Assembly (NCBI GenBank): GCA_037974965.1
Contig: JBBPFI010000001.1
Coordinates: forward strand, 248,001-312,000
Direction of reading: 5' to 3'
Source: Dacryopinax spathularia
Lineage: Eukaryota > Basidiomycota > Dacrymycetes > Dacrymycetales > Dacrymycetaceae
DNA length: 64,000 bases
Shown piece after piece: positions 17,014-46,718 of the stretch (position 1 is its first letter; every line of letters starts with the position of its first letter). Position numbers and translations under genes: made by a program. The notes under the pieces were generated by a model. That model did not search any database, had not been told where the DNA came from, and saw nothing but the letters and a program-made list of their open reading frames with translations.

Positions 17014-19292
17014 CTACTCCATGGTGTTGGGCTTGACGGGCGCCTCATCGTTGTCCGCGCCCTCGAAGAGCTGAGTGGCTTGCGAACGGCTGTACCACTT
17101 ATCCACAGGCGTGAACCACCATGTCAACAAGGCGAGGACGGTTATGGCGCCAAGCATGATGGGTGACTGTGAGACGCGTTAGTGGGACTGCGGCTGCTTT
17201 GTACTCGTACCCACATAGTTGATGTCTGAACTGTCCGTCACAGGAAAGAAGAAGGGTGAGCAATTGGTCTGTGATAGATCTGTCAATACCTGGCTGGAAG
17301 GTCCCATATTCATACTAACCGCAAAAACAATTCCGTTGAACAGAATGGCGCAGACATAGAACGGCTTCGCCCAGCGTCCGAGATTGAACTTGCTGGTCTT
17401 AAAGTCGTTCGGCGTGAGGAAGAGTCGAAGAGCCGCAATAAGACCGTATGCCGCGACAGTCGGAATACCAGCTGCGGAGACAAGGGAGGTAAAGGCCACG
17501 TTGCTCGGAAGGATGGTGCACAGCAGTATGAAGGCGAAAACGAAGATAAAGGTGACGGCGTTTCTCGGCTGTCCAAGCTCGTTGACCTGCCCGAGCCAGT
17601 TCGAGCCTGGCAGCACTCCATCGCGCGCAATGGCGAAGATGAGACGGCTTGAGGCGACAATGGCGCAAGTGGTGTTCAAGATGAGGCCAATGGTTGCCAC
17701 GATTGTCGGGAAAATGCTCGCTCCGGGTCCGAAGGCCAAGGCAAAGATTTGCACGAATGGCTGAGGAGCGCCCAGGGCGAACAGCGTGTCGAAGTCCGGC
17801 GTACAGAAGAGGAACAGGATCGTGGTTAGGAATCCGAGCGTACCGGTAGCAACCGCGCTCCAGAAAATACCGCGAGCCGAAGTCACACTCGCATTTTTGG
17901 TCTCTTCTGCAATATGACCCGATGCGTCGAAACCGACCAAGGTTCCGGAAGCCACATAGAACGAGAGCACCCAATTCCACCCATCCGATGCACCGGTGCC
18001 ATTGTCTGAAAAACCCTTAGTCAGTCTTGGCGACGAGCCGTCCCGGCGACGTGACGTACAGGTCATCGTGAACACGTCTGAAGCCGAGCGGAAGCCGTAA
18101 CTTCTAGACACTCCAATAGGGAGCCAGATGACCATGAGAAGGAAATCAAACAGAGCCCAGACGACGGAGAACCGGAAGATCCAGGAAAACCATTTGGCTA
18201 CCAATTTGTGTCAGGATGATGCGATAACCGAGTAGGAAAAGAGAGACGCACGGTGGAGGTAGTTCATCGCAATTGATAAGATCAGCAAACCCTCTGAGAT
18301 AGCCCAGATAAGCGCTCTCCACTTCACGTTATCGTTATCAACACCGCCCGGAAAGTCGATCTCCCACACTGCAAGCTGTGACACGATGTAGTTGGCCGTT
18401 GTCTGGCAGTTGCTCGCGGCGAATGTTGACCAGGCTGCTGCGCTCCAGAATGCGACGATGAAACCGAAGAATCGCGCATACTTTGGACCGGCGCTCTCCG
18501 CGGCCCAGGTGTATATGGAACCACTCAGGGGAAGTGCAGAACAGATCTCCGCGAGGACAGCGGCTGTCATCCACATGAAGACGCAAGTGATGACGTAGGA
18601 GGACCACATCGCTGCCGGACCACCAGCATAGATGCCCAAGAAAAAGACAGCGCTTGAAGAGAGTGAGAAGACGATGTACAAGCTCGGAATGGATATGCGT
18701 ACCGAACGCCGTTGATGAAGTCGAGAGCAGCGAAGCTAGCCGCAAAACTTTCGATAAAGTGCCACGAACGGTGCAAGGTCTGACCAGCTCATCAGTACAC
18801 TTCGGTGCACACCATGGTCGCTGCGCAGCAATGCCTACCGGCTTATAACCGAGCTTTTGCTAAAGACATAACGAGGAAAGGTCAGTAAAATGTCCCTTTC
18901 AAGCCTCTCCCTTGGGAGAGGTAGATTGGAGCAACTCTAGGGGGCTTCCCTCCGCAGGTATGGACACTGTTCAGGTTCAAGCGGTATAATCTCAATCCAG
19001 TCATGCTTCCGGTCTCCTTCGTTATGCGCCGCTTGTCCCATGCCTTGGAGGGAATGGGAAGCGGACACATAAGCGAAGTCGACGTTCAGCTGACATGGAT
19101 ACCCGCAGCCCGGTTGGTTACTCCGCTAGAGAGGCTACGTTACCAGTAGATTATGGCTCAGGAACACTCCAATGCATTTATCCTGCGGACGGATCACCGT
19201 CCCAAGGGCGCCTCCAGACAGCCGTAATTCACCAGCTGCAGATCGTCGGTCGTAATTGACTCGGTGCCTTCGGTGTCGTGATGTAGAGCCAT
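17014..19292 (-). CDS. APC-superfamily transporter, probable thiamine importer of Thi9 type
   Basis: The encoded protein is a roughly 12-segment amino acid/polyamine/choline-type permease. Exon 1 (19292-19233) encodes MALHHDTEGTESITTDDLQL and joins, across a 373-bp intron, the 21-nt exon 18859-18839 (QKLGYKP), then TLHRSWHFIESFAASFAALD. Membrane segments follow: GGPAAMWSSYVITCVFMWMT, EICSALPLSGSIYTWAAESA, SFYVASGTLVGFDASGHIAE and LSLGSV-free hydrophobic stretches to the C-terminal SPIMLGAITVLALLTWWFTP. The family includes GABA/choline permeases and the S. pombe thiamine transporter Thi9. I favour thiamine because intron 1 holds a TPP riboswitch. That substrate call is inference; membership of the UGA4/Thi9 branch is seen in the sequence. 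The last intron, about 44 bp, precedes the final exon. Confidence 0.85.
18904..18921 (-). repeat. Perfect hairpin downstream of the riboswitch, near the intron acceptor
   Basis: CCTCTCCC and GGGAGAGG form an 8-bp inverted repeat with a 2-nt spacer. It lies about 15-20 nt 3' of the aptamer and about 45 nt before the acceptor at 18860, ahead of a CTGAC-like branch site. It may be part of the expression platform; that role is inferred from position only. Confidence 0.6.
18935..19045 (-). ncRNA. TPP (thiamine pyrophosphate) riboswitch aptamer in intron 1 of the transporter gene
   Basis: On the minus strand the intron contains the conserved blocks of a TPP aptamer in order and spacing: TTGAGATTATACC (18995-18983), TTGAACCTGAAC (18980-18969) and CTGCGGAGGGAAGC (18957-18944). 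The second and third closely match the plant THIC riboswitch. AAGCGGC (19033-19027) can pair with ACCGCTT (18985-18979) as stem P2. The P5 loop (AGTGTCCATACCT) departs from the consensus by about one inserted base and a few changes. Fungal TPP riboswitches lie in introns of thiamine genes and act on splicing; the location here fits that mode. P1 and P3 edges are approximate. Confidence 0.87.
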
Positions 19293-19624: not shown

Positions 19625-22600
19625 TCATTGGATGTCCAATCTTGCCTTCAGTGCTACAATGAGGCGCCATTCCTCCTTCGATACGTCGTCTCGGAAATTC
19701 TCCTTCAGAACGTCAATGCTTTGCCGTGTGATGTGACTGAGGATCTCGTCCTTCTCATCAAAATGTCTGCCAAACATCTTTGCTGACTGATACACGGCAT
19801 GCTCGATCTTCACGGCCACGCCTGCACCGGCTTGGGACTTCTTGACAATCTGTAGCAAGGTGAGCAGCAATCAAAACAGGTAGGCGAGAAGATCCTTACC
19901 TCCTGACTCTTGTGATTAATCTCAAGGGAGGTAACCTTGCCCAGATCGATGATTTCCTTCTTCCCAGTGGCTTGATCCACGTGAACGACGCACAGCGGCG
20001 TGCCAACACGGAGCGTGCCATCTAAGATATCGACACCGATGATAATGGGATCGCGCTTGGCAAATGCTTGGATAATCTTCAGACGGCAGGGCCAAATAGC
20101 TTGCGGCGCTGCGTCCCGTCGCCGAGCCTCCGTCATCTCTGCTGTATATGCGGTGAAAGCATCGAACAGGTGATAAATAATATCGGCTAGAGGCGATGAT
20201 CAGGTTTGACGGAACCAAGAATGAAGGTTCACCCACCCTTGAAAATCCGAACACCGATCTCTTCAGCCATTCTCTCTGCATCTTTGTCGACCGGTACATC
20301 GAATGCAAGAATGCAAGCCAGTTCTCGTTGCCGCTCAAGCATGGTGGCCGCACGCATTACATCCTTCTTATGCACCGGACCTATGTTGATACCTGAGACG
20401 GGAATCTTGCTGGACTTGAGGAAGTCTAGTAGAGCCTCGAGTGAACCTAGGGTGCTGGCTTGCACGCAGACCCCACGACCAGATTTGTCAATGCTGCTCA
20501 AGAGAGTCGTCAGGTCCGACATGACTTCTTCCATCAGCTCTTCCTCGTCGTCATCAGGGCCAACTACTAGCAGCCTGGAACCCGCGATAGCGTTCTCCAA
20601 ACCAGGCGCGGTAATCTTGACACCCATGGCAGCCTTGATCTCCTTGTGATGTACATATTGGCCCTGTTGCCGGGGTCAGCCAGTTCTAACGGAGACCGAG
20701 ATGGGGATACTCGCCTTGACGCGCAGTTCTCTCAGCGGCTGTGGCGTGAGCAAAGCACGGACGTTTGTCACAATGGGCCCATTCAATCCACAAACTACTA
20801 TCCTGTCACCCTCGTGCAGAACGCCGTTGGACAAAACGACATCAATCGTGGTCCCAAGGCCTTCTATGACTTTGACTTCAAGCACGGTGCACTCCAGCTC
20901 CGACAGATACATAAGGCTGTCGCTCATGCGCTGCTGTGTGAGGTTGACAAGCAGCTGAATCATGTCGGGTACCCCTTCGCCGGTGACTGCTGATGTTGGG
21001 ACGAGCGATACGTTCCTGGCGAAGTTCTTGTTCTCGTAATACAGAACTGAATTCAAGCCTTGCTCAGCGAAAGCAACTATCGTCTTTTGCACCCGATCTA
21101 CGAACTCGCGCTGCACAGCGGGCTTCTGCTTCGCCAGCGACTCTTGGAAGGCGCCGTCGGGCGTGGGCACCCAGCCATAGAGACGATCAATTTTGTTCAG
21201 CGCGACAATGAAAGGAGTCTTCTTGTCACGCAGCATGCGAAGCGACTCCAGAGTTTGAGGCTCCAAACCGTGCTATGATACAGTCAGCCTGTTTGGTGAG
21301 GAGAAGATCCACAAGACGCACCATGATATCAACGACGAGAATAGCAATATTACAGAGGGAGCTTCCTCGGCTTCGTAAGTTGGTGAAGGACTCGTGGCCA
21401 GGCGTGTCGATAACCAAAAGACCAGGAATCTTGTACTCGAATGACCCGTCCTTATTAAGGACTGCCGTCTTTTGCTTGATCGCATCAACCGGGAAGTATG
21501 TGGCACCGATCTGCTGCGTGATTCCACCAGCTTCACCCTCCTGGACGTTCGTCTGTCGGATTTTGTCGAGAAGCTTCGTCTTCCCCGTATCGACGTGACC
21601 GAGAATGCAGCAAATAGGACTGCGAAGGTTGTCCTTGCTACGTGCAGCGAGAGCAGCGGCCATACGCTCCTTGCGTCGCTGAGCGGCTTCTTCCTTACGC
21701 CGAGCGGCTATTCGTTGGGCTGTAGTCAAGCCCTCTTCGTCAGACTCCTCCAGATCCTCATCCGAATCCTCGTTCGAGTCTTCCTCTGAGTCATCTTCGT
21801 CAGAGTCTTCCTCCTCTGAGCTCGAGGGATCGGCTGCCTTGGCCCGCGCTGGCTTCATTTCAGGTTTTGGAGGCGCTGTTTTCTCCGAAGCCGCTATGGC
21901 CTTGAGTAACGCAGGGGCAGATGCCTGGGCTGTGGGAGCCGATAATTTCGCAGTGCCTGCCTTCTCCCTAGGAGCAGCCTTGCCATTCGCATTAGAATCG
22001 CCGGCCTTCGTTACTGGAGCAGCAGATTGTTTGATGGCCTCAGGCTTAGCAGGTTCAACCGCTTCCTCCTCCTCAGTACTCGCATCCCAATCGTCCTTGA
22101 CATCATCTTCTGCTTCAGCATGCTTGGCTGACTCCTCAGGCTCCGAAGCATCCCAGTCGTCCTTGATGTCATCCGCGACTTCGGCTGCCTCTGGAGCAAG
22201 ATCGGTCGGGGCCGTAGATCCGGGCGACTGAATGCTCGGGAGATCGGGAACACTCGACGCAGGCGTAGAGGGCGACGCCGGCAGCTCATTCGCGACAGCG
22301 GCTGGGATAGGCTTGCCGTTCTGGGTCGGTGCCTTCTTTTTCGGCTTGGCGTATGACACTTTCCGGGGCTTGCTGTCCTCGCCTTCTGCCTTCTTCTCCT
22401 GCAAACCGGCGATCTGCACACCAGAGGCCATAAGGGCGCGCAGGCGAGCTTCGGCAGCTGCCTTCTCCGCCTTTTGTTTGGGTGTAAGTAGTTTGCCTTC
22501 CTTCTTGAGTTGCTCGCGCTTTGCTTTCTCCTTCTCCTTGCGTCGTCGCTTCTCTTCCTCCTTTTGCCGCTCCTCCTCTTGACGCCGCTTCTCCTCTTCC

Positions 22601-45041: not shown

Positions 45042-46718
45042 GAGCTTGGGATGTAGGGTGTGGGACGAGGGGTTGTAGCTATTGTAGATGATTCTAGGCT
45101 AAACACGGTTTGGGGATCCCTTTTCTATACATTTTACCGGCCCTTTCTGGGTTGGCGCCTGTTCTGGACGAAATGGACATATACCCCGCAGCAGCGTTCG
45201 ACGGTTTCTGGTTGTTGTAGACAATTCATGCGTGACTTGCTATGCAATTGCGATAGTCTCTTGCTCGACTGAGTATCGGATCACAACTAAGTATGCTAGT
45301 GCTCGGGGTTCCGGCGAGAAACAGTGCGGATACGGTATCCAGATAATTCATAAGCCATCGCCCAAGGCACGAGCACCCACAACGATAAAACCGCACTGCA
45401 AACACCGTAAATACACATCTAACAGCAAACAGCCTGCAAAAAGTAACAAAAAACTTAGGCTTCGGTTGCACCGAATGCAACGATATACTGAAAAATTCGC
45501 AATACGGCATTAGCGGACAGCGGACACGGTATCCTCTAGTAAAAGGCGAGAGGGTAGTACGTGATGTCCACAGCCCTGCCGTTAAAAGCCTGCGGACGGA
45601 GGGAGGGGGGTAGGAGCAGGGTTTGGGTTTGACGCGAGGGTGGGTGTGCACGGACCTAGCTCCCTTTGGGGGGATGTTTAGGGCAGGACCCTGAGCACTC
45701 CGGCGCTGAGGCCAGTGAGTCGCTGGCCTGCTGGCATGGGTTACCTGAATGTAGCATGTCCTTTATTTAAATGTATCGTCCTGTTTCCGAAATAACGGCC
45801 AGTATCCTGTTATGAATCTCCTTTGAAGCCTTGGCTGTCGGTGAGAATGGCTGAGTGGACGACTACTGACGCACTGATGGACACAACCGAATCGTCGCCC
45901 TCTGGAGTAGCATTCAACCCCTTTCACCCATCCCGCCGGTAAGACCGGTCGAGGGTGATATCCGTATTCTTCAGCAAGCGCACGAACAGTACTGTCGGCG
46001 TTATAAACGTGTAGAGCATTAACCAACTAGTGATACAATCCCCACCCTTCCACACAAGCGGGATGATCTATCTACCCAATCCAATCCAATCCAATCCAAA
46101 TAGTTATCGCCAATAACAAAACAAGCACTCGTTTCCTTTCCTTCCCGGTCTGCAGTGTGAGGAACATGAAGATCGATGTTGAGTTTGAGTGTCATGTGTT
46201 GCGTGTTGCGTGTCGAGAAATGGATGTAGTCGTACACGGTGTTGATGGAGTGTTGTTTGGTCTTGCGTTGTCTCGTCGTCTCGTTCATGAAGTTGTTGAT
46301 GTCTGTCGGCCCTGCCTGCGCCGGGCGTCTTCTCCAGTGAGATCCCATAGCGTGTTGGGGACCTCGGCTCGGCGTCGTGCGTGTCAACCTTGCAAAGCCG
46401 GTGGGTTTCCACCCGCAGCCGCTGACGAATTCCTTCGTTGTGGAAAACAATCGTAGCTGTACGGCGTCCTAGCGAGTCTTGCCACAACAAGGGAGAGGCC
46501 GCACTCTTCCCAGCGGAAGTGGCGGTATCCTTCCCCACCAACCCGCACCGAGCCAAGACGTTCGCCAACAACAGGTCGTCCTCGTCACGATCCTGCACGC
46601 CAGCCCGTGGGAATAGAGGCTCATCCCTCTTTACTCGGACCCCTCATTCTCCCTGCGAGACCCGCTCGTACCCCTCTTCCTTCCTTCCCCAAGCCCACCC
46701 CCCCACCCACCCCAAGCC
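45042..46718. other. Gene-poor convergent region with a CCAAT microsatellite
   Basis: These 1,677 bp lie between the CK2 beta stop and the TVP38-like stop (both 3' ends). A (CCAAT)4 run plus a partial copy is at 46076-46099. An inverted repeat AGGCCAG/CTGGCCT is at 45709-45729. A minus-strand frame at 46104-46598 directly follows the TVP38-like stop and is more likely 3' untranslated sequence. No tRNA or other RNA gene was found by eye. Confidence 0.4.

Follow-up and report, generated by a model that had tools for sequence, protein, structure and literature searches.

The window that we analysed, a 64,000-nucleotide stretch of the genome of Dacryopinax spathularia, carries on its minus strand the gene for an APC-family (PF13520) transporter (17014..19292), recognized from a gene model, Pfam and homologues. 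The model has eight exons (19292-19233, 18859-18839, 18779-18703, 18652-18252, 18197-18060, 18005-17320, 17268-17215 and 17166-17014), with splice sites predicted on the basis of sequence and of similarity to homologues, and it translates without a stop into a protein of 529 residues in which the AA_permease_2 (PF13520) domain scores 164.3 bits. Intron 1 of this model (18860..19232, minus strand, GTGAAT...TTTAG) measures 373 nt and stands out because the six remaining introns have only 48–59 nt; a branch-like TACTGAC lies within it at 18887-18881. An earlier note on this DNA had named the 373-bp first intron of an APC-family transporter as the host of a TPP riboswitch aptamer, and as regards the host both the gene model and the PF13520 match confirm this.

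Directly upstream on the same strand is the 3' end of an eIF5B gene (19625..20500; its upstream part was not delimited), identified by Pfam matches of the translation to IF-2 and GTP_EFTU_D4, with its stop (19627-19625) 332 nt before the transporter ATG. Elsewhere in the window there is a U5 spliceosomal RNA gene (45467-45582, minus strand; 74.1 bits, gathering score 40). Of 8000 candidates scored in a homology search with the transporter, 763 were homologues at E≤0.001, and 120 of these were listed; among the latter the closest match was a metagenome protein (P0001, 89% over 87% of the query), and the closest named homologues, from Mycena, Heterobasidion, Lentinula and others, were roughly 60–70% identical and come from basidiomycetes (mushrooms and their kin). 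The homologue P0002, used as a query, found no relative in viral or genome contigs.

Sequence and fold of the aptamer core

Three conserved blocks had been claimed for the minus strand of intron 1, and they are present in the order given: TTGAGATTATACC (18995-18983), TTGAACCTGAAC (18980-18969) and GCGGAGGGAAGC (18955-18944), which together span 52 nt, end bases included. This stretch (18944..18995) is the conserved core of a TPP-type aptamer, as judged by its sequence, by its RF00059 alignment and by the bases it has in common with five relatives. It holds P4, P5 with a variant loop L5 (UCCAUA), and both ligand-contact motifs intact, GAGAU of the pyrimidine pocket at 18993-18989 and GCG of the pyrophosphate pocket at 18955-18953, each placed by sequence and by the RF00059 alignment; passages of PMC5882874 describe GAGAU as contacting the pyrimidine and GCG the pyrophosphate in TPP riboswitches.

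The covariance-model match to RF00059 (18929..19022, minus strand), which includes weak P1–P3, scores 24.9 bits, less than half the gathering score of 54.3. This is formally the outcome that the earlier note had listed as refuting its claim, and we make no claim of RF00059 membership by the Rfam threshold. The E-value was 0.038 when 2 kb were compared with all of Rfam, 1.2 when the full window was set against every Rfam family, and 0.129 with RF00059 as the only family and the 29.2 Mb genome as the target. In that genome search, which scored 49 of 1328 first-look candidates, intron 1 gave the sole RF00059 match listed at E≤10. Allowing three mismatches or fewer, a 23-base core pattern likewise occurs once in the genome, at the intron 1 element and with 0 mismatches, and the reversed control of this pattern also had one genome match at ≤3 mismatches. 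Rfam searches of 8 of 24 loci (THI4, four other APC-like genes and three further thiamine-gene loci) gave no TPP match at E≤1, and a DNA pattern of the aptamer had no match in viral or genome contigs. Alone, a score of 24.9 bits is weak, and a single sequence with this score would not support a riboswitch call; part of PMC11683625 reports that fungal TPP riboswitches are better detected by fungal-specific models than by the generic one.

In the Rfam alignment, standard pairs account for 3/4 positions of P4, 4/4 of P5 and 3/5 each of P1, P2 and P3, those of P3 all being G-U; P3a, which is optional, is missing. The P2 stem, which had been said to be able to form, is marginal by this alignment. 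Both P4 and P5 are part of the minimum-energy fold in three of seven stretches (19016-18940, 18975-18944 and 19130-18929) and absent from it in the other four, the whole intron included; in the fold of 19016-18940, P3 differs and is CCGG/CUGG. The P5/L5 layout is CAG-U-G[UCCAUA]C-CUG, with one bulged base in P5 and a six-base loop, and the RF00059 alignment shows UAAU to be missing from L5. The departure of the P5 loop from the consensus, pointed out previously, is thus real, but it is not peculiar to this copy, as it has already been published for the whole TPPsw-AA group, described in passages of PMC11683625 as being without 5'-RUAAUR-3' in L5. Two further structures flank the core on the minus strand. 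Folding places a strong stem-loop just upstream (19024..19070), the apical part of which, TTCCCTCC (19054-19047), is complementary over 8 bp to GGAGGGAA of the aptamer (18953-18946), and between the aptamer and the branch-like site a perfect 7-bp hairpin, CCTCTCC-CAAG-GGAGAGG (18904..18921), is seen in the sequence and in the whole-intron fold.

Conservation in relatives and the TPPsw-AA group

When all 120 listed homologues were scored against two translations of the window's aptamer, five scored 62–93 and the next best 29. These five, P0035, P0042 (Lentinula raphanica), P0058 (Gymnopilus dilepis), P0065 (Cyclocybe aegerita) and P0086 (Mycena olivaceomarginata), are public proteins whose gene models contain a translated intron piece that matches the window over the aptamer, and for each of them 0/200 intron shuffles reached the score. 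Where the relatives' residues fix the base, 130 of 139 bases are the same as in the window (27/29, 25/29, 26/29, 24/24 and 28/28), the nine clear differences falling at 18970, 18964, 18962 and 18952; at seven more positions a codon choice remains that excludes the window's base. Position 18952 is G in the window alone, within GCGGAGGG, the three informative relatives sharing the U of the consensus GCGUAGGG. The aptamer is read in one frame by three relatives and in another by two, and because the five models use two reading frames we take the conservation to be at the nucleotide level, i.e., of the RNA, and rejected a protein-coding reason for it. The five were picked because the aptamer shows in their models; in the 115 remaining models the aptamer is not recognisably covered, and they neither support nor contradict its presence. 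In a blind comparison, the pieces of the five relatives upstream of the aptamer did not match significantly, between 61 and 153 of the 200 shuffles scoring as well, and two protein searches with the translated aptamer alone returned only their own query (11 and 1 candidates). Judged by their residues, all five relatives could have the window's P5/L5 plan, codon degeneracy preventing proof.

Above all because of this conservation in five relatives, the reading of the intron 1 element as a TPP-type aptamer in an APC-family transporter gene is well supported. The previous proposal of a TPP riboswitch at this site therefore stands as far as the type of aptamer is concerned, with the RF00059 score below gathering on the other side of the balance, and its reading as a TPP riboswitch, which would sense the active form of vitamin B1, is probably right.

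The element belongs to TPPsw-AA (Thi9-type), a published group that includes its odd loop and to which this copy adds a member. It agrees with the group in host phylum, transporter family, GAGAU and GCG, and in an L5 without RUAAUR: its host is a basidiomycete gene for an amino-acid-type transporter, its L5 lacks RUAAUR with the pocket motifs kept, and it is conserved with orthologues, being included in the models of 5 homologues out of the 120 listed and 763 found. According to passages of PMC11683625, no other TPP riboswitch group is as common in Basidiomycota as TPPsw-AA, and passages of PMC5882874 report TPP riboswitches to be widespread in amino-acid-type transporters of Basidiomycota and state that the conserved motifs, UAAU included, occur in all. 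The one-base P5 bulge and the eIF5B neighbourhood described here did not appear in the published passages on the group that we consulted. Riboswitches have also been reported for Thi9 orthologues in Basidiomycetes (part of PMC5997356, citing Moldovan et al.); S. pombe Thi9, cited in the same paper, is of the same amino-acid-transporter-like (APC) family, the likeness here being at family level (PF13520) only. The thi9-type fungal switches are called experimentally uncharacterised in passages of PMC5997356 and PMC8786325, the latter suggesting that they may have lost function. For such switches, conservation through two frames across several agaricomycete genera argues for selection, and the intron 1 aptamer gives a compact construct with which they could be tested. 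A bolder idea, which we consider doubtful, is that TPPsw-AA represents a separate aptamer architecture, in which a bulged P5 carrying a YNCAUA-like loop would take the place of the L5–P3 docking that closes other TPP aptamers. Affinity or choice of ligand would then differ from classical TPP riboswitches, and mushrooms may have kept this architecture to tune the import of a thiamine precursor, one that D. spathularia, in whose genome no NMT1/THI5 domain was found, may be unable to make.

Predicted control of splicing and thiamine uptake

Reading from exon 1 into intron 1, as in a retained intron or after use of an alternative donor, meets an in-frame TGA at codon 33 (19194..19196, minus strand). 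Retention of the intron, or use of a candidate donor GT at 19190, 19143, 19121 or 19102, leads to a 32-residue product, and a candidate donor at 19197 to one of 39 residues. Passages of PMC5882874 describe a Type III splicing switch with an internal intron of 200–400 nt in which an alternative donor precedes the aptamer and a stop codon in frame separates the two donors, and say that this type had not been observed experimentally; the layout here corresponds to it, with an intron of 373 nt, the TGA at 19196-19194 and several GT sites between the TGA and the aptamer.

Part of the same source describes how, in the N. crassa NMT1 switch, P4-P5 pairs beside the proximal donor (5' splice-site pairing), and because of this analogy upstream complements of the aptamer were sought. 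The longest is 19108-19099, which pairs with 18961-18952 of the aptamer over 10 bp (2 G-U) and lies in a candidate switching element, GCTGCGGGTATC (19098..19109, minus strand), with a possible donor CGG|GTATCC (GT 19102-19101). A run of 10 bp or longer occurs in 268/1000 shuffles, and we accordingly do not accept this 10-bp pairing of the donor element with P5' as showing the mechanism; the overall duplex energy between the upstream intron and the aptamer (-62.0 kcal/mol) was reached by 25/1000 shuffles. The gene models of P0042 and P0086 both start with MAAGIL upstream of the aptamer, and an AAGI pattern (GCNGCNGGNATH), chosen after the match had been seen, occurs once upstream of the window's aptamer, at 19109, and in 78/20000 shuffles. 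A second candidate anti-aptamer, TCCGCAGG (19182..19189, minus strand), could form 8 Watson-Crick pairs with 18958-18951, as judged from the single sequence, and directly before the acceptor there is an 8-bp complement of aptamer positions 18952-18945. As far as PMC5882874 describes it in the passages on N. crassa NMT1, that switch resembles the present one in its intronic aptamer, its nearer upstream donors and a possible P5'/J4-5 pairing with the donor region; it differs in that here a transporter is the target and coding exons flank the intron, which holds an in-frame stop, whereas the N. crassa intron lies in a 5'UTR with a uORF; L5 differs as well.

From these features we infer a switch of the following kind. 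With little TPP, splicing from the distal donor (19232) would take out all 373 nt of the intron, and the full transporter would be made. When TPP is plentiful, the aptamer would fold and bind it, so that its P5'/J4-5/P4' strand would become unavailable for pairing with the intron upstream; a nearer donor, the best candidate being that at 19102, or retention of the intron would then be favoured, and the mRNA would meet the TGA at codon 33. Most likely, then, TPP would alter the splicing of intron 1 such that the premature stop is kept, and donor choice would be the likeliest means. The transporter itself most likely imports thiamine or a thiamine precursor. Taken together as one joint reading, a TPPsw-AA riboswitch in intron 1 of this agaricomycete-like APC gene which by TPP-dependent use of a nearer donor, or by retention, would bring in a stop at codon 33 of a transporter for thiamine or a precursor, is one in which we have good confidence.

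Domains for THI4, TMP synthase, an HMP/pyridoxal-type kinase and thiamine pyrophosphokinase (TPK) were found in the genome. An NMT1/THI5 domain was not found genome-wide with two NMT1 models (PF09084 and PF13379) in a six-frame search, which can miss split genes. HMP (pyrimidine) auxotrophy of the fungus is thus possible: if NMT1 is truly absent, the pyrimidine half would not be made by the NMT1 route and thiamine or a precursor would have to be imported. Uptake of thiamine or a precursor may therefore matter for this fungus, and the absence of NMT1, if true, would give the switch a plain purpose.

Alternative readings and the eIF5B neighbourhood

That the resemblance to a TPP aptamer is due to chance, with no RNA element present, might be suggested by the E-value of 1.2 for the window over all of Rfam, but we rejected this since the intron pieces of five relatives match far above the other 115 listed homologues (62–93 vs the next 29; 0/200 shuffles each), which leaves it barely conceivable. 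A former riboswitch now decaying and unable to bind TPP in D. spathularia would agree with the low covariance-model score, the weak P1 and P2, the private G at 18952 and the loss of function raised for thi9-type switches in part of PMC8786325. Such a vestige is nevertheless improbable, as the core is kept in five relatives whose proteins are about 30–36% different from the window's transporter, both ligand pockets are intact, and the L5 change is group-wide and no private decay. The departures of L5, across the whole group, and of P3 from the TPP consensus, together with a downstream gene that encodes a transporter, could instead point to a functional aptamer with a related ligand other than TPP, e.g., thiamine, TMP or HMP phosphate; with GAGAU and GCG, the contacts for pyrimidine and pyrophosphate, unchanged, we regard this as very improbable.

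The remaining alternative accepts a real TPP riboswitch but has it work otherwise than by donor choice, through hiding of the branch site or the 3' splice site or through simple intron retention; as retention belongs also to the joint reading given above, the two overlap and their likelihoods do not add up to one. The hairpin at 18921-18904 sits between the aptamer and the branch-like site, the complement of 18952-18945 lies just before the acceptor, and the donor-pairing duplex is itself without significant support (268/1000 shuffles), all of which would suit such a mode of action. Against this, the N. crassa precedent in passages of PMC5882874 is one of 5' splice-site pairing with P4-P5, and the element with the donor GT recurs in the models of two relatives; we consider a mode of action of this other kind possible, if on the unlikely side. 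The reading we prefer remains a TPPsw-AA riboswitch that would act on the choice of donor or on retention.

The position of the transporter directly behind eIF5B also bears on unusual exceptions reported in part of PMC5882874, namely TPP riboswitches of Gloeophyllum trabeum, in an eIF5B intron, and of Postia placenta, where two copies of eIF5B carry them in the 3'UTR. In the library searched, this paper alone mentions both the TPP riboswitch and initiation factor 5B. We propose that these odd eIF5B riboswitches are probably explained by the arrangement seen here, each being the riboswitch of the next gene, and the neighbourhood would thus offer a plain answer to the published oddity of a riboswitch in a translation initiation factor. 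It probably also accounts for the name eIF5B borne by at least four listed homologues out of 120 (P0003, P0012, P0084 and P0098) which contain only permease domains, as if neighbouring gene models had been fused or names carried over.
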